Shown here: positions 795 to 13,112 of the stretch, piece after piece
How the letters are laid out: each line of letters starts with the position of its first letter
Position numbering within the stretch: position 1 is the first letter of the stretch
Source of the DNA: Kosakonia radicincitans DSM 16656
GTDB taxonomy: Bacteria > Pseudomonadota > Gammaproteobacteria > Enterobacterales > Enterobacteriaceae
Assembly (NCBI RefSeq): GCF_000280495.2
Contig: NZ_CP018018.1
Coordinates: forward strand, 1-14,706
Reading direction: 5' to 3'
DNA: 14,706 bases
Made by a program: the position numbers and the translations under genes
The notes under the pieces: generated by a model
The model's database searches: none
The model's input: the letters and a program-made list of their open reading frames with translations, nothing else
Told to the model about the DNA's origin: nothing

Positions 795-1031
795 CTGCCG
801 CATAGCGTCGCAAAGTGCATCGCCCCGCAGGGGTGTGCAGCTGCGTGACGCGGTTCTGAGGTGTGGGGGTTACTGGTAGATGCCGTGCTTTCGCACGGAC
901 ACTGCAAAAATCACTGGCCCGGAGCCAGATCGGCGGCTCAGTGCCTCATGATACGGTTACATTTTGGCAACGGCGGGGTAAGGAGTGGCGGGGGTTTACT
1001 GTCGTGCTGCGTCACTTGTTGCGTCAATGCG
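795..1031. other. Gene-free stretch beside the origin
   Basis: No convincing gene is seen on either strand. It holds the GC-rich inverted repeat at 816-839, one member of the dispersed hairpin family (871-898), a second weak stem CTGG/CCAG near 915-930, and two tandem GCGTCAAT units at 1021-1036 that run into the 3' end of the next gene. It may carry origin accessory sites. Confidence 0.5.
871..898 (+). repeat. REP-like hairpin element, divergent copy
   Basis: A GGTAG foot (875-879) is followed by a perfect 6-bp hairpin, CCGTGC (883-888), loop TTTC, GCACGG (893-898). The foot flanks match the family consensus poorly, but the hairpin and its loop closely resemble the copy at 13084-13112, with shared GCCG, TTTC and CACGGAC blocks. 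The two copies lie on either side of the helicase gene and iterons on the circular map. Confidence 0.55.
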
Positions 1032-1502
1032 TCAATTCTGGCGGTTCATTCCACGTCGCATAATGCCTGGCTCTGAGCTGGGTTTGATGTCGTACATCTG
1101 GCGCTCTGCCTCCTGCGCTTTGAGCAGGGCAAGGATCGCACTGGCGACGGCGCGGGTCATCTGCGGGTCATTATCCAGCACGGCTTTGAGCTGGCGGCTT
1201 CTGAGGGCGGTTAAATCGGTGGCATGGCGTTGCAGTAGGGTGAATTGCTGCTCTGTAAACTGGTTCCGCAGCTGTCGGATCTTCGCGCTGGGCGTCTCCT
1301 CCAGCATCTGCCGGGCGCGTTCGCGCTGCTCCATGAGGCTGGTCACGTTGTCCGGCGCTGCTTTCTGTTTGGCATCGGCGGCAATCCAGCGCTGAATCGC
1401 ACGGGCGGGGATCCCCATCTGGCGGGAGACACTGCCAGCGGTTGCGCCGGGTTGCCTGCTGAGGGTGAGGGCCTGCTCTTTTTGCTCTGGTGTGTAACGC
1501 AT
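1032..1502 (-). CDS. Helix-turn-helix protein, possibly small-terminase-like
   Basis: A 156-residue protein starting with MRYTPEQKEQ. The start at 1502 is chosen because AGGAG sits 8 bases upstream; a longer frame to 1592 adds 30 residues of poor composition and has no such site. Residues 1-45 form a homeodomain-like helix-turn-helix of the transposase/terminase type (VSRQMGIPARAIQRWIA). Residues 55-140 are charged and helical, consistent with a coiled-coil oligomerisation region, ending in KAQEAERQMYDIKP. This order, N-terminal HTH, helical middle and short C-terminal tail, is that of phage small terminase subunits, which bind packaging sites; an IS3-type OrfA-like DNA-binding protein is the main alternative. 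No large terminase or transposase catalytic gene lies nearby. The real role is unknown; only DNA binding is well supported. Confidence 0.7.
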   Translation of the reverse strand: MRYTPEQKEQALTLSRQPGATAGSVSRQMGIPARAIQRWIAADAKQKAAPDNVTSLMEQRERARQMLEETPSAKIRQLRNQFTEQQFTLLQRHATDLTALRSRQLKAVLDNDPQMTRAVASAILALLKAQEAERQMYDIKPSSEPGIMRRGMNRQN

Positions 1503-1650
1503 GGTGATGGCTCCTGTGGGATGGTGCCCCATGGTGGCATCACGACTGCTTTGTGTGGCAGCGCAGCTGCCGCCATACCGATGGCCTGCCACTGGCTCAG
1601 CCTGCCAGCCGCGACGCTGTTAAACGAGGCGGGGCAATGCGTTACCACGA

Positions 1651-1681
1651 CAAAAAGAGAAGCGCCCCGCAGAGAGGCGCT
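1651..1681 (-). terminator. Intrinsic terminator after the secreted-protein gene
   Basis: Read on the minus strand, a stem AGCGCC/GGCGCT (1676-1681 with 1661-1666) is followed by TTCTCTTTTTG. It lies 8 bases after the stop of the 118-residue gene and separates it from the HTH gene. Confidence 0.75.
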
Positions 1682-1688
1682 GAGGCGG

Positions 1689-2045
1689 TTACAGGTCGAT
1701 ATGTTTTGCGCCATTGTCCGGGCGGCAGGTGGCGCTCATCATTCCCCGGCCTACCACGTTTGCGGTGATGGTCGTTGTTGGGGTGGGAGTGTCGTTAAAA
1801 GCAGCCAGGAGCATGACCGTGCTCTGGTTTGGCGTGCTTCCGGTCATGTCCACTGTCAGATTTCCGGTCTGTATCTTATCAACCGGGAAGGAAGCGCCGC
1901 GCCAAGTTATCGTTAGCCGCCCGTTGTCCTCTCTGAGGTGGATCGCGGTGCCGTCGCTGCACCAGTGGAGCAGGGAGAGCGGTTTAGCGTATAGCGGCGC
2001 GGTGGTCAGCAGTAGCGCGAGCGCTGCGGGTATATTGATTTTCAT
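1689..2045 (-). CDS. Small secreted protein of unknown function
   Basis: A 118-residue protein. Residues 1-20 form a clear Sec signal peptide: a short charged start (MKI), a hydrophobic core (ALALLLTTA) and an AXA-like cleavage site LYA before KPL. The mature part is about 98 residues, rich in Thr and beta-prone, with only two cysteines (residues 29 and 107), which could form one disulfide joining both ends in the periplasm. No lipobox or membrane anchor is seen. No strong Shine-Dalgarno is visible before the ATG; a weak GGTGT lies about 15 bases upstream. It has its own terminator and a hairpin separates it from the upstream gene. Possible roles include entry exclusion or lysis control, but nothing in the sequence decides this. 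Confidence 0.75.
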   Translation of the reverse strand: MKINIPAALALLLTTAPLYAKPLSLLHWCSDGTAIHLREDNGRLTITWRGASFPVDKIQTGNLTVDMTGSTPNQSTVMLLAAFNDTPTPTTTITANVVGRGMMSATCRPDNGAKHIDL

Positions 2046-2082
2046 AGTATGTAATTCATTACACCATATTGATTACGATATA

Positions 2083-2100
2083 GGGCCCCCGCAGGGGCCC
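2083..2100 (-). terminator. GC-rich hairpin between the 63-residue and secreted-protein genes
   Basis: GGGCCCC (2083-2089) pairs with GGGGCCC (2094-2100) around a 4-base loop. It lies just after the stop of the 63-residue gene. The following bases on the minus strand (TATATCG) are AT-rich but not a T run, so it may be a weak terminator, an RNA stabiliser or a terminator for the plus strand, where CGGTTTTA follows. Confidence 0.45.
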
Positions 2101-2105
2101 CGGTT

Positions 2106-2297
2106 TTACAGCTGGTCAGTCACTCTGACGAGTACCGCAGCCGGATGGCACGCCATCAGGATTTTGACGTGGTGATCATGCTGGTCTCTGCCTGCGGCAA
2201 TAACTACGCCGTTAAGCATGACCGCAACGCACTGGCCCTGATTGAGTAGCTTGTGCCACTGCTGCGCCGCTTTCCTGCGTGGGTCTATGCGGTACAT
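2106..2297 (-). CDS. Small hypothetical protein (63 residues)
   Basis: The protein begins MYRIDPRRKAAQQWHKLLNQ and has a basic N-terminal helix followed by a hydrophobic beta-like segment (CVAVMLNGVVIAAG) and a His-rich stretch (DQHDHHVK). The start is supported by a strong GGGAGG five bases upstream, which lies in the end of the previous gene. Its ATG directly abuts the TAA of that gene, so the two are translationally coupled. No family is recognised. Confidence 0.6.
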   Translation of the reverse strand: MYRIDPRRKAAQQWHKLLNQGQCVAVMLNGVVIAAGRDQHDHHVKILMACHPAAVLVRVTDQL

Positions 2298-2492
2298 TTA
2301 CGCCTCCCACGAAAACAGGCGGCAGACTGGCAGTGTGAGCACGCGGCCCTCCGCCGTTCTGAGGCTGACTTGATGGATGCCGCGCCCGTTCATCGCTATA
2401 GTGCGCTGGATGCCGTGCTGGCGGATTTCTCCGTGCTCGATGGTTAAGCCGGGGAATGTTTGCGCCGTGTGACGCTGTGATGCAATAATCAT
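2298..2492 (-). CDS. Small hypothetical protein (64 residues)
   Basis: It begins MIIASQRHTAQ and has a region of short beta-prone segments (IQRTIAMNGRGIHQVSLRT) that could form a small beta barrel. The stop codon abuts the ATG of the downstream 63-residue gene, supporting a two-gene unit. The Shine-Dalgarno is weak (GGA about 11 bases upstream). The preceding 140 bases contain three strong hairpins, so translation may be controlled by leader structure. No family is recognised, and an in-frame upstream start is not evident. Confidence 0.55.
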   Translation of the reverse strand: MIIASQRHTAQTFPGLTIEHGEIRQHGIQRTIAMNGRGIHQVSLRTAEGRVLTLPVCRLFSWEA

Positions 2493-2524
2493 AATGTTGG
2501 TTCCATTGGGTTGGTTCTGACAAT

Positions 2525-2628
2525 GGCGCGGCTTTGGTTGCCACCTTCACCGCGCCGCTTTTGGTTCCCCTGTTAGCGCAGGGGCTCCAATCTTTTAGAC
2601 GGGCCATGCCTTCCCAGTCTGGCCCGTC
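2525..2628 (-). promoter_or_regulatory. Three consecutive hairpins upstream of the 64-residue gene
   Basis: Within 104 bases: GGCGCGG/CCGCGCC (2525-2531 with 2550-2556), CCCCTG/CAGGGG (2567-2572 with 2579-2584) and an 8-bp pair GACGGGCC/GGCCCGTC (2598-2605 with 2621-2628). They fill the gap between the resolvase stop codon and the next gene. They could end resolvase transcription or form a structured leader. No T run follows any of them on the minus strand. Confidence 0.5.
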
Positions 2629-2632
2629 GCTC

Positions 2633-3259
2633 TTAATTCTCTTTCATTACCCGCAGCACCGTAGAGCGCGAGCAGCCAGCCATTGCGGCGATCTCTCCTG
2701 TCGTGTGCCCCTTCTGGGCGTATTTCAATATCTTGTTATGCAGCGCCGTGTTTGGCGGCTTCCCGGTGTATATGCCGCGTTTCTTCGCTTTCTCGATCCC
2801 CTGCTGCTGGCGCTTGCGCCGGGTCTCGTAGTCATCGCGGGCCCATGCTGCGGCAATGTCGAGCAGCATCGAGTTGAGCGCATCGAGTACCACGCCGCGA
2901 ACGTCGAAACCGCCCGCCCCGGTTGGCTGCTCTCCCTGCAATACCGCCAGCGTGGTGGGGATGTCGCAGCAGACAATGCGCAGCCGTTTGGCCCGGATCC
3001 GTTCTTTCAGCTGCTCCCACTCTGTCCGGGTTAAGCGGCTCAGGCGGTCGAGCTTCTCCACCAAAAGGACAAAGCCCGGCCCTACATCGTTCAGCAGCTT
3101 GTTGAGCTGCGGGCGCTCCAGCTGCGTCCCTGATACGTTCTCTTTGTACCAGCCGCAGATCGTCAGATTGTTGGCTGTGGCAAATTCTTTTAATTCAGCC
3201 TCTGCGCGTTCCGCGTCCTGCTCTTTGGTGCTGGCCCGCATGTAAATAACGCAATTCAT
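2633..3259 (-). CDS. Serine recombinase, resolvase/invertase family
   Basis: A 208-residue protein with the catalytic N-terminal domain of small serine recombinases and a C-terminal helix-turn-helix. Counting from the second of two adjacent methionines, R8 and S10 in YMRAST and D71, R72 and R75 in KLDRLSR align with the gamma-delta resolvase active-site residues R8, S10, D67, R68 and R71. The long E helix covers roughly residues 105-140, and an HTH lies at about 174-208 (TTGEIAAMAGCSRSTVLRVMK). The start at 3259 is preferred because GGGAG lies 6 bases upstream; for the ATG at 3262 the gap is only 3. The size suits a plasmid multimer resolvase or invertase rather than a large integrase. The upstream 110 bases contain res-like repeats and a promoter, so it probably resolves dimers at this site and represses its own gene. 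Confidence 0.92.
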   Translation of the reverse strand: MNCVIYMRASTKEQDAERAEAELKEFATANNLTICGWYKENVSGTQLERPQLNKLLNDVGPGFVLLVEKLDRLSRLTRTEWEQLKERIRAKRLRIVCCDIPTTLAVLQGEQPTGAGGFDVRGVVLDALNSMLLDIAAAWARDDYETRRKRQQQGIEKAKKRGIYTGKPPNTALHNKILKYAQKGHTTGEIAAMAGCSRSTVLRVMKEN

Positions 3260-3286
3260 CATTAGCTCCCATGGTGCGGGGTGTTT

Positions 3287-3381
3287 CTTTTGGGTGTGTC
3301 AAAACAGAATGCGCCTTTTGGGTTTTATAATCAACCCTAACGACGCGTTAATCACTGCTTTTTTGAGGTGTACCCAAAAAG
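3287..3381. repeat. Candidate res site upstream of the resolvase
   Basis: CTTTTGGGTG (3287-3296) and CTTTTGGGTT (3315-3324) are direct repeats, and TACCCAAAAAG (3371-3381) is an inverted copy. An A/T-rich region with a near-dyad (GGGTTTTATAATCAACCC, 3321-3338) lies between. Small serine resolvases normally bind a roughly 100-120 bp res site of three subsites directly upstream of their gene, and the size and position here match. Assignment of crossover and accessory subsites is not possible by eye. Confidence 0.55.
3324..3351 (-). promoter_or_regulatory. Candidate promoter of the resolvase gene
   Basis: On the minus strand TTAACG (3351-3346) and TATAAA (3329-3324) are separated by 16 bases. 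It lies within the res-like repeats, so bound resolvase would block it, as in Tn3-type systems. Confidence 0.45.
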
Positions 3382-3390
3382 TCGCCCTTT

Positions 3391-3416
3391 CGAGCCAACG
3401 GCTCGCCCCTACCGCT
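3391..3416 (-). repeat. REP-like hairpin element
   Basis: On the plus strand CGAGCC, loop AAC, GGCTCG (3391-3405) is followed at once by CCCCTACCGCT (3406-3416). On the minus strand this reads as an AGCGGTAGGGG foot followed by the hairpin, the layout of REP elements with a GTAG foot. It lies between the res-like site and the plus-strand operon. Confidence 0.7.
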
Positions 3417-3474
3417 CCAGTCGTGACGGCAAACTGTCCGGGCAGCATTCCGCTGACTAAAAGAGAAAAAACCG

Positions 3475-4113
3475 ATGAGCACGAAAACCTATATTGCGGA
3501 GCTGGGCGAACGTCTGGCTTCTGAGCAGCTGCTTGAGCACCCGGAGCTCCCGCAGTTGAGCCTCTCCCCGGATGTGCCAGCCGTGGCGGCTGTCCTCCAC
3601 AAAATGCGCCAGCGCACTGAAATGGAGACCTGCCTGAATGAGCTGGAATCTGTCATTCCTGCCAAGCAAGCGGCATCCCAGCGGCTGCGCAGCCGTATTG
3701 TGGAGGCGGAGCGCCTGATTGCTGAGGCCAAGGCCGATCTGCTGGCTGGTCGCCAGCCTGATCCAAATGCCGCCCTGCAAAGCCTGATTATTGATGACCT
3801 GCGCCAGCAGCTGATTGAGGCGCAGGACGAGCAGCAGCGTGCGGAGAGTGAAATTAGCCGCGTGCGTGGCGAGCTCTCCGCCGCAAACGCCGTGATTGAC
3901 CGGGCCATGACCGAATACGCCAACGATGTGCGAATCAGCCGCGCCTATGCCCTCCAGAAAGCGCTGATCGAGGAGCTCACCTCTCTGGCGGATGCAGACG
4001 GCGGGCGTGGTCAGTACGGGCGTAAATTCTCCGTCAGCACCTCGCTGGCGGCTATTGTCAATTCGCATGGTTTCATTGAGATCCTGCGCACTCGCCGGGG
4101 GATGGTGTCATGA
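3475..4113 (+). CDS. Coiled-coil protein of unknown function, first of a five-gene operon
   Basis: A 212-residue, strongly helical, charged protein. Residues about 45-150 are rich in Glu, Gln, Arg and Ala with heptad-like spacing, as in a long coiled coil (for example LRQQLIEAQDEQQRAESEIS), interrupted by a linker near residue 95 (GRQPDPNAAL). The C-terminal 50 residues are more globular. No signal peptide or membrane segment is seen. The Shine-Dalgarno is weak (AAGAG about 8 bases upstream of the ATG), but no better start is visible. The stop overlaps the next ATG as ATGA, so the genes are translationally coupled. The family is not recognised. Given the virion-type protein encoded opposite, a scaffold, chaperone or minor structural role is possible but not shown. 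Confidence 0.75.
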   Translation: MSTKTYIAELGERLASEQLLEHPELPQLSLSPDVPAVAAVLHKMRQRTEMETCLNELESVIPAKQAASQRLRSRIVEAERLIAEAKADLLAGRQPDPNAALQSLIIDDLRQQLIEAQDEQQRAESEISRVRGELSAANAVIDRAMTEYANDVRISRAYALQKALIEELTSLADADGGRGQYGRKFSVSTSLAAIVNSHGFIEILRTRRGMVS

Positions 4114-4721
4114 GCGGTAATTTCCAAAAGCTGATCAACATGCTGAATGGGGCGGGTGGCACGCTGACCAAATCGCTGGACGCCGCTGACGGCTTCCCGC
4201 TGAGCAAACAAAGCCTCGATCAGGCCCTCAAGAGCTGCGGTGATATGGGCTACGGGCAGCAGACGCAGCAGCTGCTCAAAGATATGCACGCGGCGGGCCT
4301 CAGTTCCGGCCTTAGTGACAAAGAGCTGGAGGGGCACATTGCGGAGACTATGCGCGGCCTTGCCAGTAAACGAGCGTTAACCAAAAGCCTGACGCCGGGT
4401 GATGCGCTGGCGGATGCAATGCAAAGCACCGCAGCTGCGCCGCAATTTAACCCTAACCAGATCACCGTTGCCCCATCAGTCGAGGCCGTACACCGTGCGC
4501 GAGCGCAGCAAGTCAGTGATGCCCAGTTTTTGCAAGAGGTGGCAGATCGCGGCGTGCCGTTCGAGCAGGTCAATCAGCTGCATCAGGTGATGGAGCAAAC
4601 GCGGGGCCTGCCGGATGACGTGCGAGCCCCTGCCATGCAAGCGGTACGGGCGGCGCTGCCGCAGGAGCCGCTTTCCCCAGCCGCGCAGGGCATCGACTGG
4701 AGTGCTCAGGGATGGAAATAA
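4110..4721 (+). CDS. Hypothetical operon protein (203 residues)
   Basis: It starts in the ATGA overlap with the previous gene; a GGGGGATGG stretch upstream offers a Shine-Dalgarno. The protein is helical and Gln/Ala-rich, with Gly-rich turns in the first 60 residues (NMLNGAGGTLTKSL, CGDMGYGQQTQQLL) and a low-complexity linker around residues 100-125. The C-terminus is Pro-rich and ends in SAQGWK. It has a single Cys and no signal peptide or clear membrane segment. The composition resembles small virion or scaffold proteins more than enzymes, but this is only an impression. It contains one TGCAATGCA palindrome at 4415-4423, matching the putative RHH operator. Its stop lies 10 bases inside the next gene. 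Confidence 0.72.
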   Translation: MSGNFQKLINMLNGAGGTLTKSLDAADGFPLSKQSLDQALKSCGDMGYGQQTQQLLKDMHAAGLSSGLSDKELEGHIAETMRGLASKRALTKSLTPGDALADAMQSTAAAPQFNPNQITVAPSVEAVHRARAQQVSDAQFLQEVADRGVPFEQVNQLHQVMEQTRGLPDDVRAPAMQAVRAALPQEPLSPAAQGIDWSAQGWK

Positions 4722-5065
4722 ACAGCCGGGCCGTATTGCTGGCCTGTCTGTCTGCGTTGCGCTTGCCTGCGGGTGAGCGCACCTCTGATCACGTCATGCA
4801 GCTGGCGCACCTGCGCACCGTTCTGCGTAACGAGGGGCACTCCTCCCCCGCTATCCATGACGACGCCGCACTGCTCAAAGAGGCTGAGGCACTGGCAAGG
4901 GCCCGCCGTGAATGGCTGGCAGACGCTGCTGATATGCGCCAGCGCCACACCGAGCTCCAGCACCTTGTTGCGATCAACCTCCTGCCTGAGGGGGAAGCAC
5001 GCGAGGAGCAGGGCGATAACTACCGGGCATGGGCAAACGCCGATCCGGTCAAACAAAAATATTGA
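4712..5065 (+). CDS. Hypothetical operon protein (117 residues)
   Basis: It starts within the last codons of the preceding gene. The protein begins MEINSRAVLLACLSALRLP, an apolar N-terminal helix that is not followed by a convincing cleavage site. The rest is helical and charged, with HDDAALLKEAEALARARREW and a Glu-rich C-terminal part ending in PVKQKY. No domain is recognised. The tight coupling in the operon argues that it is real and acts with its neighbours. Confidence 0.7.
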   Translation: MEINSRAVLLACLSALRLPAGERTSDHVMQLAHLRTVLRNEGHSSPAIHDDAALLKEAEALARARREWLADAADMRQRHTELQHLVAINLLPEGEAREEQGDNYRAWANADPVKQKY

Positions 5066-5074
5066 GGTTTCACC

Positions 5075-5416
5075 ATGACTTTTACACGTACCTACGCCCC
5101 AGACATCGATCAGACCTTCCAGCAGGGAGGCCGTGGCGGCACCGCTAAGCCGTTCCAGAATCAGCCTTATGCGCCGGGTGAGTCTATGGGTAGCGCAGCT
5201 GGTCGCCAGTCCACCGCAAAGGGCGACTTTGACCGCATCACGTTGACCGATCACCCTGTCTACGGCAAAGCCGCAGGCCATAACCGCGATCACCTCTCCG
5301 GGGAGTGGGTTGTGGAGGCTGGCGCGGTGTCTGTTCGCTCCCGCGTGTCTGCTGCTGAGGCGGCGAACAAGTGGGAGCAGGCTGTGGCGTCTGCTGTCGC
5401 GGCAGGTAAGCCGTAA
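5075..5416 (+). CDS. Hypothetical operon protein (113 residues)
   Basis: The start is supported by TTGAGG seven bases before the ATG, overlapping the stop of the previous gene. The first 55 residues are Gly-, Gln- and Pro-rich and look disordered (FQQGGRGGTAKPFQ, YAPGESMGSAAGRQ). The second half is more ordered, with a short HNRDHL segment and an Ala-rich C-terminal helix (AAEAANKWEQAVASAVAAG). No family is recognised. The TAA overlaps the next ATG (TAATG), so the following short gene is coupled. Confidence 0.7.
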   Translation: MTFTRTYAPDIDQTFQQGGRGGTAKPFQNQPYAPGESMGSAAGRQSTAKGDFDRITLTDHPVYGKAAGHNRDHLSGEWVVEAGAVSVRSRVSAAEAANKWEQAVASAVAAGKP

Positions 5417-5589
5417 TGGAAAGGCCCGTGATGCTTATCCCGGAGCGTGCCATTGCCGATCCCGATGCTAACCGCATCAGGGCAATGCAGGAGCGTATCC
5501 GGCGAGCCACAAAGCGCCGGGCGCAGGAAACGCAGGAGCGAGCCATGGCTGCGCCAGATTATCACTGGAGCGCATCCCGCCGCAGATAG
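5416..5589 (+). CDS. Small basic protein, last gene of the operon
   Basis: A 57-residue frame that starts in the TAATG overlap with the preceding gene and ends at TAG 5587-5589, just before a strong terminator. It begins MERPVMLIPERAIADPD and contains a very Arg-rich helical stretch (RIRAMQERIRRATKRRAQET), ending in SASRRR. The strong positive charge suggests nucleic-acid or membrane-surface binding. The overlap, position and terminator support a real gene. Confidence 0.6.
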   Translation: MERPVMLIPERAIADPDANRIRAMQERIRRATKRRAQETQERAMAAPDYHWSASRRR

Positions 5590-5593
5590 CAAA

Positions 5594-5622
5594 AAGGGCC
5601 CGAATATGGGCCCTTGTCTTTT
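5594..5622. terminator. Bidirectional terminator between converging operons
   Basis: AAGGGCCC (5594-5601) pairs with GGGCCCTT (5608-5615) around GAATAT. On the plus strand GTCTTTT follows; on the minus strand TTTTTGC follows. It serves the plus operon and the minus-strand tape-measure-like gene. Confidence 0.88.
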
Positions 5623-5647
5623 GCGTGCCAGCACGCCCGCTACCGCT
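5623..5647 (-). repeat. REP-like hairpin element
   Basis: On the plus strand GCGTG, loop CCAG, CACGC (5623-5636) is followed by CCGCTACCGCT (5637-5647). The foot overlaps the stop codon region of the 915-residue gene. The 11-base tail is identical to the copy at 8642-8652. Confidence 0.65.
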
Positions 5648-8393
5648 ACCGACTGGCAAAGCTGCGCGGCTGCGTGAAAGAGCTTTTTACCGGGACGCTT
5701 TGGGTTTGTGTGCGCCCATCTGGGTATTGCAGGTTTACATTGATATTGGCGTCTGAAATATCAATTTTCCCTCCGCGTTGCCCGGCTGGCATGGTCTCCG
5801 GTGCGATCTTGTAGTTGTTCTGGTTATTCAGGGCCATGCTAACGCCAGAATTAACCACGGATTGCGGGATGCTGCTATTTTTCACGTTCTCTTTGCGGAG
5901 GATGGCCCGCGTTACGTTCAGCAGAGTGTTCTGATCGGTTAAGTCCAGCTGCTGATCTGGGTCGTAGCCTGTCCATTCGCTCGCCTGCCGGATGTAGCGC
6001 GGCACCTCAGGATCACCGCTCGCATAGGTGCTGATAATCTCCCGTAGCGTGCGCTTGCGTCCACCCTGATATTTCCCAGTGCTATAACGCAGCAGCTGCC
6101 CGGCAGACGCTGCAATGCCTGCCTGCTGGGTTGGGAAGCGCCGCCAGTTGCCGTTAGCGTCCTTCACGTTACCAACGTTATTGCCTGCCCAGTTCCCGGC
6201 AGCACCGCTGCCTGCTGCCGCTGCGGATGGTGAGGAAATATTGCCGCCTAGCGCGGCCTCTCCGGCTGTTTGCGGGCCGTATGCCGCTGCGTGTGCATTC
6301 GCATTGCCCTGCTCTACAAAGTTGAGCTGCTGCTGGCGCATGAGCTGCTGCTGGCGTTTCAGTGCCCTGTATCGGTCGCCCTCTGGCCCTGCGGTCTGCA
6401 TACCGACGCCCTTGTCCTGCAAGGTGTTCATTTCCTGCTGATAGGCATCGAGACGCCAGCCGTATTTGCGGCGGGCCTGCTGCTGCGTATCGAGGCGCAT
6501 CCCCTTTTCATAATCGCGGCGCAGACTGTCCTCACTGCCCCCAGTCATTTTAACCAGTGCCATGCGCATGACATCGAGAGCAGGCAGGGCGCGGCGGGCG
6601 TAGTCCTCAAACTGGTTGTTGAGCTTCGCCACGTTATCGCGGATCTCGCTCCCTTCGGTCTTCGCAGGGCCATGCACGGTGGCAACCTGAGTGAGCACGT
6701 CTTTCAGCTTCTCCGGGTCAGTACCTCCAAGGGCATCGGTAAGGCGCTGGCGTTCGCCAGCATCAAGGCCCCCGCGCTTGAGGTATTCATTGCCCATAGC
6801 CTCCAGCCCTTTGCCGCTCTGAATCTGCCCCAAAGCGGCGTAACTGGTGGCGTTTACGCCGTCAGGGTTAATTTTCAGGCGGCTGAGGCGACTTGAGACG
6901 CCGCTCATATCTGCGCTGCTCATCTGGTCGATTGCCAGCGCGTCATTGATGCCGACGCCAAGATGGCGCGAGAGAGCCACGATTGAATCAGGGCCGTAAC
7001 CATAGGCCCGGTGGATGCCCTGCCGGGTCATATCGAGCAGGGTCTGATCGCCGTGATGATTGCCGCCAAAGCGCTGCCCGTAAAGAGAATCAGGGCCCAG
7101 CGTGCTGCTAATGGTGCCAAAAGCGCCGCCAGACTGGAGGACTTCGAGCGCCATCGGGTTGTTGATGCCGTTGCGCAGGGCCATGCGGGCCATGAATGCC
7201 CGTGAAGGGTCGCCCATTGCGCCACCGCGCTGGAGGTTCGCATTAATGCGGCTCAGCAGGTTGGTGGAGCCCTGCAAATCCATGCCGGGGATCCCTGAGC
7301 TCATCAGGCCAGCCATTGCACCCGCATAGCCCGGTACATTTGGCGCGGTCAGGCTTGCGCGTGCCTGCTGGGTGGCAAAGTCGCTGATTGCCTGCATAGC
7401 TTCGCCAGCCTGCGCAAATGCGCCTGATTTTCCGATAGCCTCCCCCATGAGCAGGCCCATGCGGCGCAGCTGCTGATCGTTGTTTACGACACGGGAAGCG
7501 GAGAGCTGGCCCATCGTGCCCGCGACGCTGTTTGGGTCGAGGCCGTAGGAGCGGGCCAGACCGCCAGAAACAAGCATCCCGGTGCCAAGGTTCTGGCCCG
7601 GCTGGATGTTGGCGGCGCGGGAATAGGTGGAGGCCAGCGCGATGGCGTCACCGTTGGTCATGCCCAGATTGTTGGCTGTGCTCATGACGCCGCGCTGGAG
7701 GCTGGAAAAGCTGACAATGCCGCCCATCTGGCGGTATAGCTTATCAAGCCCGATCACGTTGTCCTGTGCCTGCCCGATCTTGTCTGCGACCGCGCCGATA
7801 ATCTTTCCTACTCCGAGCGCAGCAAGTCCGCCGACCAAGCCCATGAGCCCGGCACCTGCTCCGCCAGACAGCCCGGCGTTCATTGCCCCGCTAATGGTGC
7901 CGCCGACCGGGCCAGCGTTGCGCAGCATCGTGCTGAGGTGATTCTGCCATACCGAAGGCTGGTTATTATTCTGCGGCCCGCCCTGAGGCGCTGGAGAAGG
8001 ATTTGAGGGGGTAGGCGCTGGCGGTTTCGGCTTCGGTTTCGGGGCGTCGTCAAACTCCACGCCCAGAAAGTTGAGCATGGCCTGCATCTTTTTGATGCGC
8101 TCAGCCTGATCGCCATACATCTTTTTCCAGTCAGCCATGAGCGGGTTAGACGCTCCTTGGCCCGTCTTGCCCATGGTCGTTCTGAGCTCGGTCTGGACTT
8201 TCAGCAGCTTCTGCATCTGCTTGATGAAGGCGTCCAAGTCCTCTTTTGACTTGACGTTAATCGGCTCAAACTTCTGGTTGTTGGCCTGACCGACCTGAGA
8301 CGCGAGGATGCGGATCTGGTCGTTCACCATTTGAATCTGTTGCTTGAGGTCTGCCGCGTCAAACTGCGCGGAGACCGGGATTTTAATAGCCAT
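5646..8393 (-). CDS. Tape-measure-like virion protein with a C-terminal peptidoglycan-hydrolase-like domain
   Basis: A 915-residue protein with AGAGG six bases before the ATG. Residues 1-100 are helical (coiled coil, beginning MAIKIPVSAQFDAADLKQQI), as in many phage tape-measure proteins. A Pro/Lys-rich linker follows at about 115-147, then a Gly/Ala hydrophobic segment at about 159-210 (LMGLVGGLAALGVGKIIGAV) that could insert into a membrane. The middle (220-650) is helical with repeated LGMTNGD, YGLDPNS and GMDLQGS-like turns. Residues about 732-865 look like a lysozyme-type domain of phage structural proteins: GNNVGNVKD, FPTQQAGIAAS, TLREIISTYASG and TGYDPDQQL are its landmarks. The role inferred is a virion injection or tail-length protein that opens the cell wall. 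It lies directly downstream of the zinc-ribbon gene with a 43-base gap. No capsid, tail tube or portal gene is present, which makes its presence odd. Confidence 0.72.
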   Translation of the reverse strand: MAIKIPVSAQFDAADLKQQIQMVNDQIRILASQVGQANNQKFEPINVKSKEDLDAFIKQMQKLLKVQTELRTTMGKTGQGASNPLMADWKKMYGDQAERIKKMQAMLNFLGVEFDDAPKPKPKPPAPTPSNPSPAPQGGPQNNNQPSVWQNHLSTMLRNAGPVGGTISGAMNAGLSGGAGAGLMGLVGGLAALGVGKIIGAVADKIGQAQDNVIGLDKLYRQMGGIVSFSSLQRGVMSTANNLGMTNGDAIALASTYSRAANIQPGQNLGTGMLVSGGLARSYGLDPNSVAGTMGQLSASRVVNNDQQLRRMGLLMGEAIGKSGAFAQAGEAMQAISDFATQQARASLTAPNVPGYAGAMAGLMSSGIPGMDLQGSTNLLSRINANLQRGGAMGDPSRAFMARMALRNGINNPMALEVLQSGGAFGTISSTLGPDSLYGQRFGGNHHGDQTLLDMTRQGIHRAYGYGPDSIVALSRHLGVGINDALAIDQMSSADMSGVSSRLSRLKINPDGVNATSYAALGQIQSGKGLEAMGNEYLKRGGLDAGERQRLTDALGGTDPEKLKDVLTQVATVHGPAKTEGSEIRDNVAKLNNQFEDYARRALPALDVMRMALVKMTGGSEDSLRRDYEKGMRLDTQQQARRKYGWRLDAYQQEMNTLQDKGVGMQTAGPEGDRYRALKRQQQLMRQQQLNFVEQGNANAHAAAYGPQTAGEAALGGNISSPSAAAAGSGAAGNWAGNNVGNVKDANGNWRRFPTQQAGIAASAGQLLRYSTGKYQGGRKRTLREIISTYASGDPEVPRYIRQASEWTGYDPDQQLDLTDQNTLLNVTRAILRKENVKNSSIPQSVVNSGVSMALNNQNNYKIAPETMPAGQRGGKIDISDANINVNLQYPDGRTQTQSVPVKSSFTQPRSFASR

Positions 8394-8436
8394 GGGATGC
8401 CTCTTTTTCTTGTGAGGCCCCAGTGTGTTGTCACGA

Positions 8437-9645
8437 CTATTTCAGCGCCCGAAGCTGCGCCAGTAGCGCCAGCAGATCAGTGCCGTCACCCCTTTCCCGG
8501 TCTATTGCCATCGCTACGCCGTCGAGATAATCCCACTCACCCAACGCAGCCAGAATGCAGGCCCGCAGGCGGTTGAATAGCAGCTGTGGCACGCGTTCGA
8601 GTGTAAGAGGGGAAGGGGGCACCAATTGCAGCGCAGCTGCACCGCTACCGCTCAGGGGGAAATCGGCATACATCGCCACATAGACGCTGAAAAACTGCGG
8701 CTGTTTTACTTCCACGTCGATCCAGTTGTGTGGCGTTCCCGATACATCCGCAGATGCAGTGCAGCACGGGCATGAGGCAGAAACAACGCCGTTACGGTCG
8801 CGCATGATACGCAGCGGAGCATGACGGCACTCTGAGCAGATCACTGCGCTGTCAAACTTCCCCTCTGCAAAGGCGTAAACGTTCGCCGCCTCTCCGGGCG
8901 TCATAAATGCCAGTGGCGGGCGTACTGTGGCAAGCGGTAGGGGGCGTGCCTGCGGCTCGCAATCAGGGCAGTAAAAGCGCACCGGGCCCACGGTCGGGGC
9001 GTCGGTGTTCCAGTCCCAGCGGAGAGCTGTCTGGCGGTGCGTTCGGCAAAAATAGCGCGGGTGGCCACTCGTATCGAATCCGGGGACGCCGGGTGTGATG
9101 TCGTGAAATTCTGAGGCAGGATCGCGCAGGAGCTGGCGCAGAATGGCCTCGCTCTGGGTGTCTCCTATCCAGATAGCCCAGCGCGGCACGCCGTCAGCCA
9201 TATACCCAATCAGCCATGGATTCATCATTGGCGGGAGGGTGATCGGTCTGCCGCGTGCGCCCCGGCCTTTCTTGCCCTCAGAGGTACGATTCCAGCACGA
9301 AACGCAGCAGACAGCCCACGGTGTAGCCTTGTTGCCGTTGGTCTTGCCGACGAGCCGGGCCAGCTTGCCGCAGCGGGGGCACTGGTGGATAACAACCGGA
9401 GGGGAGCCCGTCGATTCATCGCGCCACAAAATCCCGCCTGTAACGCATTTTGAGCAGGGTCTGCTGCAACGCTCTGGGTCTGCATGGCCCTTAGTGGTTT
9501 CGTCGTGCAGGCGCTGGCACGCGCTGATACTGACGCATGATTTTGCCGAATCCGGGCAATAAACAAAAAGCCTGCCGGGCATCAAATCGGGATAAGCCTC
9601 GACGGCTCCGACCGCTGCGAGTTTTTCAGGGGAAACGTTATCCAA
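8437..9645 (-). CDS. Multi-zinc-ribbon protein, TTG start
   Basis: A 402-residue protein read from TTG at 9645; AAGGCGGTGA precedes it with optimal spacing, so the TTG is well supported. Nineteen cysteines lie in the first 300 residues, mostly in metal-binding pairs: C30/37/43, C60/64/67, C89/92 with C113/114/117, C200 (with H203) with C226/229, and C270/273 with C292/294/295. This suggests at least three zinc ribbons. The last 100 residues have no Cys and are helical (LFNRLRACILAALG excepted for one Cys). Zinc ribbons of this type are common in nucleic-acid-binding and transcription-control proteins; P2 Ogr and P4 Delta are short zinc-finger activators of phage late genes, but no homology to them is visible. 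It is probably co-transcribed with the downstream tape-measure-like gene, so a role in late expression or in virion assembly is possible. Confidence 0.75.
   Translation of the reverse strand: MDNVSPEKLAAVGAVEAYPDLMPGRLFVYCPDSAKSCVSISACQRLHDETTKGHADPERCSRPCSKCVTGGILWRDESTGSPPVVIHQCPRCGKLARLVGKTNGNKATPWAVCCVSCWNRTSEGKKGRGARGRPITLPPMMNPWLIGYMADGVPRWAIWIGDTQSEAILRQLLRDPASEFHDITPGVPGFDTSGHPRYFCRTHRQTALRWDWNTDAPTVGPVRFYCPDCEPQARPLPLATVRPPLAFMTPGEAANVYAFAEGKFDSAVICSECRHAPLRIMRDRNGVVSASCPCCTASADVSGTPHNWIDVEVKQPQFFSVYVAMYADFPLSGSGAAALQLVPPSPLTLERVPQLLFNRLRACILAALGEWDYLDGVAMAIDRERGDGTDLLALLAQLRALK
8627..8652 (-). repeat. REP-like hairpin element inside the zinc-ribbon gene
   Basis: On the plus strand TGCAGC, loop GCA, GCTGCA (8627-8641) is followed by CCGCTACCGCT (8642-8652). 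It lies within coding sequence near the C-terminus of the zinc-ribbon protein, so it is tolerated by, or part of, the reading frame. Confidence 0.65.
8933..8960 (+). repeat. REP-like hairpin element inside the zinc-ribbon gene
   Basis: AGCGGTAGGGG (8933-8943) is followed by GCGTGCC, loop TGC, GGCTCGC (8944-8960), a 7-bp stem with one T-T mismatch. It is in the opposite orientation to the copy at 8627-8652, about 290 bp away. Confidence 0.65.
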
Positions 9646-9717
9646 AATTCACCGCCTTTTTATACGTCATGAGAGCCGCAAAGCCGCGCCAGTGCTGATC
9701 TGAGAGTGAATTAGATG

Positions 9718-9747
9718 TTGACGCATTTAAGACATTTTGTCTATATT
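9718..9747 (+). promoter_or_regulatory. Strong sigma70-type promoter of the replication operon with an internal operator-like palindrome
   Basis: TTGACG (9718-9723), 18-base spacer, TATATT (9742-9747). A perfect inverted repeat AGACA-TTT-TGTCT (9730-9742) fills the spacer and touches the -10 box, an ideal place for a repressor. Expected transcription start is near 9754. Confidence 0.75.
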
Positions 9748-9753
9748 GTTCAT

Positions 9754-10001
9754 CAGGCGGGGCAATCACAAGGGCATCCGCCGATCAATTCCCAATTCCA
9801 GCAAGAATGGGAAAGTACACCCCAGTCATGGGGGGTTAGCGGGTGACGCTCTCTCACCCATCACCATGACGTGAGAGCGAAAGGCAGGAGCCAGTGTGGC
9901 GACTCTCCGGGGGCGAAAGCCCTACATCGTGCCGCATTCGTCCTTATGGCTTCTTTTGGCTTTTGGCATAAAAGCAATCCTTCCGGCCCTTCGGGGCCGG
10001 A
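9754..10001 (+). ncRNA. Long structured leader of the replication operon, candidate immunity-type or attenuator RNA
   Basis: About 250-300 bases separate the promoter from the first likely gene. Predicted by eye: CCCC/GGGG at 9820-9834; two mutually exclusive pairings, GGGTGA (9841-9846) with TCACCC (9854-9859) or CTCTCAC (9851-9857) with GTGAGAG (9871-9877); a GAAA-tetraloop hairpin GGGC/GCCC (9911-9922); and an 8-bp TTCG hairpin (9982-10001). In P4 and P1-type elements, leaders of replication or immunity operons carry small processed antisense RNAs (CI and C4) that block expression by pairing with the leader. The position and competing pairings fit, but no sequence match is claimed. An open frame from GTG 9871 crosses the leader but lacks a ribosome binding site. 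Confidence 0.45.
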
Positions 10002-10059
10002 TCCCATTGCAGCGTGTAACCAACCCATTGTTGCGCTGCGTCCTGAATTGGTACGCCTA

Positions 10060-10245
10060 ATGAGAAAACTTGATAGAGCGGCTCTTGCTTCCGAATTGAG
10101 GATCGGAAAAAAGCAGCTGGAGCGCCTGATCGCGGCTGGGAAGATACCGCCGCCAGATGGCAGGACATATCCGGGCGGTAGTTACTGGCAGTTAACCACC
10201 CGGCTAAAGGCAATAATTGCGGCACAACGCCGCCCGGAGCGCTGA
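10060..10245 (+). CDS. Small MerR/excisionase-like HTH protein
   Basis: A 61-residue protein from ATG 10060. Residues 5-45 form a helix-turn-helix like those of AlpA/excisionase or MerR-type small regulators (ALASELRIGKKQLERLIAAG, then KIPPPDGR), where the segment after the recognition helix forms the wing. It probably binds DNA to control the operon or to aid replication or recombination. The start is uncertain: no Shine-Dalgarno is clear at 10060, at the in-frame ATG 9946, or at the in-frame GTG 9871, and the upstream part encodes leader hairpins. Translation may depend on leader folding. The gene ends 2 bases before the primase start. Confidence 0.6.
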   Translation: MRKLDRAALASELRIGKKQLERLIAAGKIPPPDGRTYPGGSYWQLTTRLKAIIAAQRRPER

Positions 10246-10247
10246 AA

Positions 10248-11453
10248 GTGAACGAGAGCAAAGATGAATACCTGTTATGGCCCGGTGTGTTTGACGAGGC
10301 TCTGGCACGCGTGCTGCCTGCACCTGATTATCTTGGGTGGGTGCAGCAGGTACGGCAGATCGCCTGCTGGGCTAATATCCTGAGGCTGGGCGATGCGCAG
10401 GCCATCTGCGAGCGCTGGAGCGCCTCAGGCGTTAACGCTGCCCCAGCTGACGCCGGGCTTATTCGTGCTGCTCTCCGCCCTCAGTCTCTCGAAAAACTCA
10501 GCCCCTTCTCCATGGCGGGCTCATTCCTGCGTGACTCCGGCATTATCGCGGAGATCCGCTCCGGGCGTTTTGGCTCCTACCAGCCGACCGCCGCAGACCT
10601 CGCCAAACGCGAGCAGCAGCGCCGGGAAATGGAGGAGGCTCACCGGGCAGCACTGGAGGCCGACGAACGGCAGCGCCAGATTGCCATCCGGCAGGCAACG
10701 CAGATTTACAGCAAGGCCAGTCTCGATCCGTCTCAGTCGCCGTACTGGCAGGGGAAATGCAGTGCAGCCGCACTGCCCCTACCGCTGCCGGATGACGTAA
10801 AAGCCGCAAACTGGCGCACCTTTGAGAAAGGCGCTCCCAGCAAAGGCATTTACTGGAATCACTCGCTGGTCATTCCCCTGTACTGCATCACTGACGAGCA
10901 GGCGCTGGGGATGCGCACCATAGAGCTGATCTGCGGTCGCCCTAACCCGGAAACTGAGCTCTCATTCACGGGAGCAAAACGCGGCCTCAAAGGCTCCCAG
11001 CGCGGCGGGGCTTTCTACCCGTTCAATCTGGATAAGGCCCGCAAGGGTGCGCCGATTGTCATCTGTGAGGGCTTCTCCTCCGGGGTGGCGCTGTCGCTCT
11101 CCATCGGTGGAGCTCTGCCAGTCGTCTGCGCCATGAGCTGCAATAACTTTGCCGCCGTCATTGATGAATTGCGGATCGCTTTCCACGATAACCCGATTTA
11201 TCTGGTCGGTGACGTGGGCGTGGGCGAGGAGATAGCGCAGGACATTGCCGCCATCAGGGGCCGCGTTCCTGCTTACTCCGTGCCCCTCAGCCGCGTGCTG
11301 TTTGAGGACGGCAATGATCCGTTCGACCTGCTGGCCCGCCACGGTGTCGAAAACTCCCGCACGCTGCTGCGGTCGTTATTCAGAGAGGCCCGCATTGGTC
11401 GTGACGGTACGCTGTCCACGCCGAGCTCATCGGATGCCAGTGACAACATTTGA
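10248..11453 (+). CDS. Toprim-type DNA primase of the P4-alpha/plasmid class
   Basis: A 401-residue protein read from GTG at 10248, with GGAG 8 bases upstream inside the end of the HTH gene. Residues 1-110 are a helical N-terminal domain; 115-165 is a charged helix (AKREQQRREMEEAHR); 170-260 matches the DNA-contacting part of P4-like primases (SPYWQGK, LVIPLY, TELSFTGAKRGLKGSQRGG). Residues 267-340 form the Toprim fold: the nucleotidyl-transfer glutamate is E274 in ICEGFSSGVAL, and the second acidic site is D322 in YLVGDVGVGEE. The usual DxD motif is thus DxG, with E327/E328 close by. No N-terminal zinc ribbon is present; P4 alpha carries primase and helicase in one chain, while here the helicase is a separate gene. 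It would make primers at the iteron origin. Confidence 0.82.
   Translation: MNESKDEYLLWPGVFDEALARVLPAPDYLGWVQQVRQIACWANILRLGDAQAICERWSASGVNAAPADAGLIRAALRPQSLEKLSPFSMAGSFLRDSGIIAEIRSGRFGSYQPTAADLAKREQQRREMEEAHRAALEADERQRQIAIRQATQIYSKASLDPSQSPYWQGKCSAAALPLPLPDDVKAANWRTFEKGAPSKGIYWNHSLVIPLYCITDEQALGMRTIELICGRPNPETELSFTGAKRGLKGSQRGGAFYPFNLDKARKGAPIVICEGFSSGVALSLSIGGALPVVCAMSCNNFAAVIDELRIAFHDNPIYLVGDVGVGEEIAQDIAAIRGRVPAYSVPLSRVLFEDGNDPFDLLARHGVENSRTLLRSLFREARIGRDGTLSTPSSSDASDNI
10758..10786 (-). repeat. REP-like hairpin element inside the primase gene
   Basis: On the plus strand GCAGTGC, loop AGCC, GCACTGC (10759-10776) is followed by CCCTACCGCT (10777-10786). The 7-bp stem is perfect. The left arm overlaps a TGCAGTGCA palindrome (10758-10766), the putative RHH operator. 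Confidence 0.68.
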
Positions 11454-11463
11454 ATATTCATAC

Positions 11464-11497
11464 GCCGCGCCCCTCGTTGGGGATGCGGCTTTTTTTA
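11464..11497 (+). terminator. Intrinsic terminator after the primase gene
   Basis: GCCGC (11464-11468) pairs with GCGGC (11485-11489), and inner CCCC (11470-11473) with GGGG (11479-11482), followed by eight T. It splits the operon; downstream genes may be expressed by read-through. Confidence 0.85.
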
Positions 11498-11516
11498 TGC
11501 CCGGAGCATCAAAACC

Positions 11517-11804
11517 ATGACAGATCAGGACTTCGAAACAATGCTTTTTAACCAGTCCAGCCAGACCGCGACGCTGTTTGTCGCCCGCGCTGTGACTGAC
11601 CTCGACGCCATGCTGGGCGAGGGGTACGCCGTCGCTAACCCTGCCGTTTTGGCCCAGTGGCTCACGGTAGCCGGTTCTCAAATGGTTACGCTCCAGCAGC
11701 TGCACGGCGGCAACGGTCTGGCGACTCAGATCGAGCGACTGGGGGCCATGGCTGACGCTATCGGGGCCAGCGCAGCAGCAGCGCACGCGGGGAAAATGCA
11801 ATGA
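11517..11804 (+). CDS. Small hypothetical protein (95 residues)
   Basis: It starts at ATG 11517 with GGAG 10 bases upstream, just after the primase terminator. The protein is helical and acidic in its N-terminal third (MTDQDFETMLFNQSSQ) with an Ala/Gly-rich C-terminal helix (AMADAIGASAAAAHAGKMQ). No membrane segment or Cys is seen. Its stop overlaps the next start as ATGA. It may be a small accessory replication or regulatory protein, but no family is recognised. Confidence 0.65.
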   Translation: MTDQDFETMLFNQSSQTATLFVARAVTDLDAMLGEGYAVANPAVLAQWLTVAGSQMVTLQQLHGGNGLATQIERLGAMADAIGASAAAAHAGKMQ

Positions 11805-12256
11805 GACCTAAAGCAGAGATTCGCGCAGAGAGTACCGCCCGCGTAGTGGCGACCATCAGCAAAGAGATGGCGGAATGGCAGCAAACTGATTACAGCATGG
11901 CCCTGCTCCCTGACTTCTATCCGGGCCAGCGCCAGCGCTCCCATACCGGGCAGCTGTACGTTATCGACCGGGCCAGCTTTACCAACGCCATCTGGGGCGG
12001 CACGCCACAATTTGCCGCCGATGCCCGCAAAGCGCTGGCCTTTAAGCAGATTCACCGCCGTGAACGGTCTTTTGTCGGTGTCTGCGATGCGGAGCGTGAA
12101 GCGCTCGCCACTGCCCTAATGCTGGAGCTGTTCGGCATCACTGACCGCGATCCGATTCTGGCCCAGCTGCCGCACCTCGATGCACTGGAGCTGCTGACGG
12201 TCGAGGATAGCGACAAAAAGACCATCGCGGAGGCGTTCGGTGAGTGGATCAAGTGA
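11801..12256 (+). CDS. Hypothetical protein (151 residues)
   Basis: It is coupled to the preceding gene by an ATGA overlap. The N-terminal 45 residues are helical and charged (TARVVATISKEMAEWQQ). A middle part (YPGQRQRSHTGQLYVIDRAS) looks globular, followed by RRERSFVGVCDAEREALATA and an acidic C-terminus (LLTVEDSDKKTIAEAFGEW). There is one Cys and no transmembrane segment. The family is not recognised; it travels with the replication genes. Confidence 0.68.
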   Translation: MRPKAEIRAESTARVVATISKEMAEWQQTDYSMALLPDFYPGQRQRSHTGQLYVIDRASFTNAIWGGTPQFAADARKALAFKQIHRRERSFVGVCDAEREALATALMLELFGITDRDPILAQLPHLDALELLTVEDSDKKTIAEAFGEWIK

Positions 12257-12257
12257 T

Positions 12258-12398
12258 ATGGATGCAGCTGTAAAGGCCATATGCGGGGCAATTCGTGACG
12301 GACTGCCCTTTGAGGAGGTTCGGGAGCTGCCGGAAGTTCGCACGGTCGCGGAGCAGGGGCTGCTCAGCCTCGATAGGCTCCGGGATTGGTGGATGTGA
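12258..12398 (+). CDS. Small hypothetical protein (46 residues), last gene of the replication operon
   Basis: The ATG lies one base after the stop of the 151-residue gene, and the frame ends with TGA at 12396-12398 directly before a terminator. It begins MDAAVKAICGAIRDG and is acidic and helical, ending in LDRLRDWWM. The pattern of two helices, with EVRELPEVRTVAEQG between, could be a small HTH or a protein-binding hairpin. The lack of an own ribosome binding site suggests coupled translation. It is short, but the position supports it. Confidence 0.5.
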   Translation: MDAAVKAICGAIRDGLPFEEVRELPEVRTVAEQGLLSLDRLRDWWM

Positions 12399-12402
12399 TA
12401 AT

Positions 12403-12427
12403 GGGCCATTACGGCCCTTTCTTTTTT
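12403..12427 (+). terminator. Intrinsic terminator of the replication operon
   Basis: GGGCC (12403-12407) pairs with GGCCC (12413-12417) around ATTAC, followed by TTTCTTTTTT. Confidence 0.85.
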
Positions 12428-12451
12428 GCGGCCTCGCCGCAGCCTACCGCT
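12427..12451 (-). repeat. REP-like hairpin element at the end of the RHH gene
   Basis: On the plus strand TGCGGC, loop CTC, GCCGCA (12427-12441) is followed by GCCTACCGCT (12442-12451). It starts where the operon terminator ends and overlaps the stop codon region of the RHH gene, like the copy at 5623-5647 in the other converging gap. Confidence 0.65.
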
Positions 12452-12962
12452 AGAGCTTCCCCAAATCCTTTAATTTGTGCCGATAGTCCCGGCAGCGGCT
12501 GCGCGTCCACTCCTGCCCGGTCGCCGTGCGATACCCGGCTGCATTCAGTGCCGCCACAATATCCTCAAGGCTGGCCCGTTGCTCAGTCATGCTGACTATC
12601 AGCCCGTCTGCATCGCCCGATATGGCGACGAAACGCGGATCACCGTTATGCACCGCAAAGCCCTGCGGTGCCTCTCTTTGTGGTGCAGGTGCGGTGCGCT
12701 CTGCTTTTACTGCCGGGGCTGGCTTCGTCTGTGCGCCCAGCTGGCCCGATATGGTGCCCAGCAATGCAATGACCTGATCCAGCTTCTGCACCTCTCCAGC
12801 TGGCTCCTGCTCGCCCTCCTTGCTGGTCTCCACGTAACGCCGCAGCGCCTCAGTGATAATGCCCGTTCGGTTACGGTGCTGCTGCTCTGCCAGCTGCTCA
12901 ATCTGGGCCAGCAAATCGGCATCCAGACGCAGCGTAAACGACGCCGTTTTCTTTGGTTTCAT
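12450..12962 (-). CDS. Ribbon-helix-helix DNA-binding regulator with a second C-terminal DNA-binding-like domain
   Basis: A 170-residue protein with AGGGA five bases before the ATG. Residues 1-48 form a CopG/Arc-type ribbon-helix-helix: a basic tip, the DNA-contacting strand TASFTLRLD, then helices LLAQIEQLAEQQHRN and TGIITEALRRYVE. Residues 50-100 are a Gln-, Pro- and Ala-rich linker. The C-terminal part (about 125-170: SLEDIVAALNAAGYRTATGQ, then WTRSRCRDYRHKL) resembles the small DNA-binding module seen after the catalytic part of large serine recombinases. Such proteins repress plasmid copy number, partition or transfer genes and usually themselves. Directly upstream are TGCA-N-TGCA palindromes that fit a dimer-of-dimers operator, and further copies lie in the primase and at the helicase start, so it probably represses itself and perhaps replication. 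Confidence 0.85.
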   Translation of the reverse strand: MKPKKTASFTLRLDADLLAQIEQLAEQQHRNRTGIITEALRRYVETSKEGEQEPAGEVQKLDQVIALLGTISGQLGAQTKPAPAVKAERTAPAPQREAPQGFAVHNGDPRFVAISGDADGLIVSMTEQRASLEDIVAALNAAGYRTATGQEWTRSRCRDYRHKLKDLGKL

Positions 12963-12981
12963 GGTTGTCCCTCATTCGCGG

Positions 12982-13068
12982 TGCAGTGCGGTGTAATGCA
13001 GTATAAACGCGGCGCATACGTCATGCAAAGCGCGTCATATGTACCGCAACGAAATGCAATGCACTGCA
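12982..13068. promoter_or_regulatory. Operator-like TGCA-N-TGCA repeats upstream of the RHH gene
   Basis: TGCAGTGCG (12982-12990) and TGTAATGCA (12992-13000) are near-palindromes exactly 10 bp apart, one helical turn. TGCAATGCA (13055-13063) and TGCACTGCA (13060-13068) overlap in a run of three TGCA blocks. The two groups would flank the RHH promoter. Closely spaced short palindromes are typical RHH operators. Confidence 0.6.
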
Positions 13069-13083
13069 AATTTGCGGAGGGTG

Positions 13084-13112
13084 AACGGTAGGGGCCGCGC
13101 CTTTCGGCACGG
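13084..13112 (+). repeat. REP-like hairpin element
   Basis: AACGGTAGGGG (13084-13094) is followed by CCGCGCC, loop TTTC, GGCACGG (13095-13101 with 13106-13112), a 7-bp stem with one C-A mismatch. It is the closest relative of the copy at 871-898. Confidence 0.6.

Follow-up and report, generated by a model that had tools for sequence, protein, structure and literature searches.

What do eight short hairpins, each beside an eight-base foot, do on a small bacterial plasmid? The question is raised by contig NZ_CP018018.1 of Kosakonia radicincitans DSM 16656, hereafter the window: 14,706 bases that make up a complete circular plasmid, contig C3 of a three-contig 6.12-Mb genome. The reading frame of its rep gene continues across the window end, and the related record L014 has this frame unbroken, with 527 identical amino acids (aa), so that the window is a circular plasmid cut within rep. 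An earlier note on this DNA had described the hairpins as a family resembling repetitive extragenic palindromic (REP) elements, with single-strand initiation or protein-binding sites as its alternative, and it is this alternative that the comparison of plasmid lineages favours. The sites may quite possibly be plasmid-specific, primase-dependent single-strand-initiation (priming) sites, a reading adopted here tentatively.

The foot-plus-hairpin family in the window

The dispersed family is confirmed as real. All eight copies are present where the earlier note had placed them, some with ends 1-2 bases off (Table 1); six feet are exact, with CTACCGCT occurring 6 times over both strands, and three copies (B, E and F) contain exact CCCCTACCGCT, whereas the feet of A and H had to be corrected to ACTGGTAG and AACGGTAG, respectively. 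Regarding enrichment over shuffled sequence, on which the note had staked its claim, 300 dinucleotide shuffles held AGCGGTAG 0.32 times on average (maximum 3) against 6 observed, and AGCGGTAG with a hairpin 0.013 times (maximum 1), again against 6. A hairpin starts at most 4 bases after 6/6 exact feet, and a random position has an equally strong one with probability 0.051, at a hairpin threshold that was chosen after the lineages were seen and varied between scans. If one mismatch is tolerated, the 16 occurrences are only slightly above the 10.7 expected, and 12/200 shuffles reach as many. CTACCGCT is not enriched in the host genome, where 183 occurrences in 6.12 Mb correspond to about 0.44 per 14.7 kb and the pattern read backwards occurs 874 times. 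Since the z-scores of the single-site DNA folds are modest (-3.3 to +0.3) and not decisive, the case for the sites rests on comparison.

The stems differ from copy to copy; that all of them pair, as first described, holds in full for six of the eight, E and H each having a mid-stem mismatch. As the note had also said, three copies (D, E and F) are inside genes and two (C and G) at gene ends, on stop codons.

Table 1. Positions of the sites, the weak possible ninth copy and the other features under discussion.
Feature	Position	Strand	Foot	Stem and loop	Context
Site A	872..898	+	ACTGGTAG (two mismatches)	CCGTGC, loop TTTC	directly after rep and the iterons
Site B	3391..3416	-	AGCGGTAG	CGAGCC, loop GTT	between resolvase and gene 3475
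Site C	5623..5647	-	AGCGGTAG	GCGTG(C), loop TGGC	overlaps stop codon of 915-aa gene
Site D	8627..8652	-	AGCGGTAG	TGCAGC, loop TGC	within 402-aa gene, sense strand
Site E	8933..8960	+	AGCGGTAG	7 positions, T.T mismatch, loop TGC	within 402-aa gene, antisense
Site F	10759..10786	-	AGCGGTAG	GCAGTGC, loop GGCT	within primase gene, antisense
Site G	12427..12451	-	AGCGGTAG	TGCGGC, loop GAG	overlaps stop codon of ribbon-helix-helix (RHH) gene
Site H	13084..13112	+	AACGGTAG	7 positions, C.A mismatch, loop TTTC	upstream of rep
Weak possible ninth copy	4640..4662	+	AGCGGTAC	GCGGC.GCT.GCCGC	within gene 4110-4721; recurs in L009 and L014; 10.5 bits (E 2.1)
Iteron-like GTTAACAG repeats	551..797				downstream of rep; likely origin
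Toprim protein	10248..11453	+			predicted DnaG/T7-type primase fold; candidate site reader
rep, first part	13627..14706	+			continues at 1-504 over the window end (circular record)
rep, last part	1..504	+			end of the rep frame

Four plasmid lineages and their feet

The comparison set consisted of 27 plasmid records, 25 of them whole; the plasmids are mutually related, so that the counts below are not independent. Four clades with different feet are distinguished among them: clade 1, the type of the window, with AGCGGTAG; clade 2 (L015, L017, L018, L020 and L023) with A(C/G/T)GGGGAG; clade 3, the pSYM9 type (L057-L060 and L064), with CGCAGAGG; and clade 4 (L061-L063) with ACCGGTAG. Despite the different feet, the map of the sites is largely common to the four lineages. 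The clade-2 plasmids had first seemed to be without most copies, and hairpins were then found in the same places with their own foot.

Clade-1 relatives carry orthologous copies at the same positions. Protein alignments are gap-free at D, E and F, so the copies there are not inserted elements, and insertion of a mobile element into these genes is rejected. Inside genes, foot and stem are kept at the codon level, and it is the spacer and loop codons that vary: at E, the foot CTACCGCT is kept in 8/8 sequences and the adjoining codon is CCC, ACC, CCG, CAC or CTT; at D, changes are confined to the loop (8/8 sequences compared); at F, the foot is kept in 10/10 clade-1 sequences, with changes in the loop. 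Synonymous variation affects 1/9, 1/10 and 3/13 codons of conserved residues at E, D and F, respectively, against gene-wide values of 112/224 and 161/278; D and E are among the lowest stretches of their gene, and F is not the lowest of its own.

Between lineages, the same codons of site F encode GCAGTGC/GCACTGC with CTACCGCT in clade 1 and GAAAGCC/GGCTTTC with CCTCCCCGT in clade 2; read from the alignment, foot and stem are rewritten here and the structure is kept. The earlier note was right in that the structure persists though the stems vary. Three different feet precede an almost identical hairpin, GCGCAGC.T(G/T)TC.GC(A/C)GCGC, namely ACTGGTAG in L010, AGGGGGAG in clade 2 and ACCGGTAG in clade 4. 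In our alignment the feet can be written as ASSSRKAG, followed by zero to three bases, a stem of 5-9 pairs and a loop of 3-5 bases; a central stem mismatch is frequent across lineages. The clade-3 foot depends on the strand, being GCAGAGG in 17/17 minus-strand and CGCTGAGG in 9/10 plus-strand cases, and the same was seen again in L068.

Counting 6-mers beside hairpins with no motif supplied placed the foot word first in 7/11 plasmids; it ranked lower in L010, L059 and L062, and was absent from the nine words listed for L015. Across 24 plasmids, exact feet of the own lineage had a hairpin in 53/57 (clade 1), 23/36 (clade 2), 18/28 (clade 3) and 14/19 cases (clade 4), as compared with 3/60, 7/16 (three of these being site C), 1/13 and 0/17 for feet of other lineages, a tally over related rows that describes and does not test. 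Two extra plasmids fitted the foot expected from the identity of their primase, an expectation that was not recorded beforehand: L067, with 4/5 ACCGGTAG feet beside a hairpin, and L068, with 4/4 GCAGAGG; in both, feet of the other three lineages with a hairpin were not found. Stems vary between sites, whereas feet mostly change in concert, which is most simply explained by a trans-acting factor inherited with the lineage; these sequence comparisons point to a reader of foot plus hairpin that follows the plasmid lineage.

As for the layout, if the maps are oriented so that the resolvase is on the minus strand, those sites that a plasmid has follow one another as B-, C-, D-, E+, F-, G-, H+, A+, A'-; A' precedes A in clade 4, is present in clades 2-4 and was not found in the site scan of the window, where five feet are on the minus strand and three on the plus strand. 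Site A directly follows iteron-like repeats downstream of rep in the plasmids examined, most clearly in the window and clade 3 and weakly in L018. Other plasmids have different repeats in place of the GTTAACAG array, and L058 and L063 share theirs. The rep protein or the iterons are unlikely as foot readers, since the rep/iteron block is common to L058 (clade 3) and L063 (clade 4), whose feet differ. Total GC skew is positive in 16/16 plasmids examined. For third positions, with plus as the strand of reference, the skew is positive in 7/7 plasmids for minus-strand genes and in 5/7 for plus-strand genes, a pattern that suits a one-way fork with plus as the leading strand.

Candidate readers and a possible priming role

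The best candidate for the reader is the Toprim protein, because it tracks the foot type on its tree and has the predicted fold of a DnaG/T7-type primase. Its co-segregation with the foot was read from quick gene trees without a support test. The structural model (predicted local distance difference test, pLDDT, 84.6; predicted template modelling score, pTM, 0.64) matches the polymerase domain of DnaG and T7 gp4 primases; the acidic residues E274, D322, D357 and D360 are invariant in ten sequences, and the Pfam Toprim_3 match is below cut-off. The structural matches hardly extend to the N-terminal part (residues 1-140), where primases of this type have a zinc-binding domain; clades 1 and 3 encode the 402-aa cysteine-rich protein as a separate product. 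Primase scans of genome and viral contigs confirmed no relative among 34 and 49 pattern-matching stretches, respectively.

Under the priming reading, each site would fold, once the helix is opened, into a short hairpin beside the 8-base foot as spelled by its lineage. The plasmid's own DnaG/T7-type primase, perhaps with a partner, would start a primer where it recognises, on single-stranded DNA, a hairpin with its foot or anti-foot. Leading-strand synthesis would begin at site A, beside the iterons (jointly with A' in clades 2-4). If plus is the leading strand, the lagging template of a one-way fork would expose hairpin and anti-foot at the minus-foot sites (B, C, D, F and G in the window), and lagging fragments would start there. 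Both the Toprim protein as reader and the direction of priming are what we infer; the priming reading is favoured because it explains the lineage-specific reading, the adjacency of A to the iterons, the spread of sites along the replicon and most of the polarity.

DnaG-type primases use short template words at their start sites, and so does the T7 gp4 primase according to the excerpts of PMC12839067; the dedicated hairpin beside each site is a difference, none being described for DnaG or T7 gp4 in those parts of the literature that were consulted. The closest likeness is to ssiA/ssiB and RepB' of RSF1010, where, in the sections available of PMC4434180, a hairpin with a 5' tail is specifically bound, the sites are on opposite strands and the start depends on the primase; by analogy, such a dependence may apply to the present plasmids. 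The RSF1010 primase is of the archaeo-eukaryotic type according to the same sections, whereas the Toprim protein is predicted to be of the DnaG/T7 type; a second primase on the plasmid, perhaps rep, is conceivable.

Several observations weigh against a priming role. According to PMC4434180, RSF1010 needs only one such site per strand; the site scan gave 3-8 for each of the present plasmids. Gene 3475 follows the foot type as well as the primase does (3 changes over 23 plasmids, the minimum being 3), and the minimum change count is likewise attained by four genes that some lineages lack. L014, admittedly a recent and near-identical relative, has neither the primase nor the 402-aa gene and still carries sites B, G, H and A. 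As for the feet, those of A and H in clade 1, and of a site I in five plasmids, are often one or two bases off; in clade 2, 5/5 plasmids retain a GTAG foot at site C, and in L015 the foot of site I is of the GTAG type. Polarity is broken by site E, on the other strand, and by the F-like site of clade 4, whose foot is on the opposite strand and whose stem is bulged. Finally, clades 1 and 2 show a weak skew; in the window and L018, plus-strand genes have a third-position skew close to zero or negative.

A bolder version of the priming reading, in which a DnaG-type plasmid primase starts at foot-plus-hairpin sites on both strands, with a lineage-specific foot rewritten together at most sites, and primase and sites form a compatibility code shaping module exchange, is conceivable, though less likely than not. 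If true, nature would have provided four primase versions and four versions of their landing sites on much the same map, and the choice of start site by the primase would be directly testable in vitro by exchanging feet; hairpins with GTAG-like feet need not then be REP elements, and the replication of a group of non-mobilizable enterobacterial plasmids would be explained.

Other explanations and the wider plasmid group

Unlikely, though the least so among the alternatives, is that another plasmid protein binds the sites on single-stranded or cruciform DNA for partition, copy control or plasmid folding. The product of gene 3475, encoded beside site B, would be a choice in keeping with its match to foot type, but it has only weak, sub-cut-off matches to coiled-coil-like families; the HTH_Tnp_1 protein is also at its minimum (2 changes, minimum 2, 21 plasmids), but its relatives, known from clades 1, 2 and 3, were not found in clade 4. 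Whichever protein is chosen, polarity and iteron adjacency need a separate reason. The HTH_Tnp_1-matching protein has 156 aa (1032-1502, minus strand) and is named "transposase" in some relatives, with no catalytic domain matched.

More improbable is that a factor of a helper phage reads the sites for replication, packaging or take-over, the plasmids being satellites of ~90-kb myophages. Their size of about 12-16 kb is in line with this, and the 915-aa protein (5646-8393, minus strand) has particle-associated relatives in such phages (48.6% over 89% for Yersinia phage fHe-Yen8-01, 58.8% over 72% for Enterobacter phage phiT5282EW), a homology from which the plasmids may be phage satellites. Clade 3, however, has the sites and is without the phage-like 915-aa gene, and in 139.8 kb of two related phages scanned for AGCGGTAG the sole exact foot with a hairpin sits in a tRNA gene; with one further exact foot lacking a hairpin, related phages were rejected as carriers of the sites in the stretches scanned. 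A pattern match in a viral contig (L025) was read as chance.

Very improbable is the REP-like family of the earlier note, with elements handled in trans by TnpA-REP (REP-associated tyrosine transposase, RAYT) or another HUH enzyme. The likeness is real in layout and size: REP elements, as characterised in the portions available of PMC8266576 and PMC3733652, have a short hairpin behind a GTAG foot, a mismatch in mid-stem and an associated Y1 enzyme, and the present sites share with them a 5' foot, a spacer of 2-3 bases, a hairpin of 5-9 bp, a small loop, a frequent mid-stem mismatch and the location of some copies inside genes. The REP tetranucleotide, mostly GTAG in the same portions, is matched by clades 1 and 4, whereas clade 2 has GGAG and clade 3 AGAG. 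Membership in the REP/RAYT family is nevertheless not supported: the foot is of eight bases and lineage-specific, the copies are few (3-8 per plasmid) and fixed in position, their stems are unrelated, with none shared among the window's eight and no high copy number, and no gap marks an insertion at D, E or F. The note had already remarked that the plasmid encodes no such enzyme, and no Y1_Tnp match at E <= 1 was found in 19/19 related plasmid records searched. Four equally scoring Y1_Tnp frames on the host chromosome (L026-L029) probably belong, judging by their multi-copy insertion-sequence look, to an IS200-type element.

The amplification that a REP family would imply was sought with a covariance model (R1) built from nine B/E-class sequences, the all-class MAFFT alignments being misaligned; class D scores only 9.8-10.8 bits with it. 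Its four best matches are on the plasmid, and the best on the host chromosome reaches 20.3 bits (E 0.09; 150/981 candidates scored). Among 392 genomes of the bacterial family, 16 match at E <= 0.01: the window's own, and 15 others in which a single weak match (two in one genome) scores 23 to 27.5 bits. No amplification is seen in these scans. Breakpoints between lineages are enriched only weakly at the sites (15/250 against 9.0 expected, with 24/500 shuffles as high), which speaks against the REP/HUH reading and led us to reject the sites as recombination hot spots.

Scarcely credible is that the sites work as RNA hairpins in transcripts (mRNA ends, regulation): C and G do stand at gene ends ahead of terminator-like repeats, and four fetched clade-3 plasmids have a ProQ/FinO-type gene, but E and F are antisense to their host genes in clade 1, and Rfam gave no match at gathering score and four sub-threshold ones, one of which (5592-5624) touches the end of C.

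Regarding the plasmid group, 21 plasmid records from Enterobacter, Klebsiella, Escherichia, Citrobacter, Serratia, Yersinia and Kosakonia match the window, and 17/21 are typed non-mobilizable; in a wider circle of records, the 402-aa cysteine-rich protein occurs in 53 and the primase in 66. Literature searches restricted to open-licence papers gave no paper on these sites among the matches listed, which include two genome announcements naming plasmid pSYM9. L023, a clade-2 plasmid, shares at 92% the RHH block of the window (12449-13088), whose ends fall within or next to the feet of G and H. The record of L023 itself (26,750 bases) looks like a head-to-tail dimer, its annotated genes recurring after about 13,375 bases. 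Finally, the IncN resistance plasmid NC_011385 (L066) contains, at 12782-14757, a piece that comprises the primase gene of clade 1 together with site F, and two adjacent genes.

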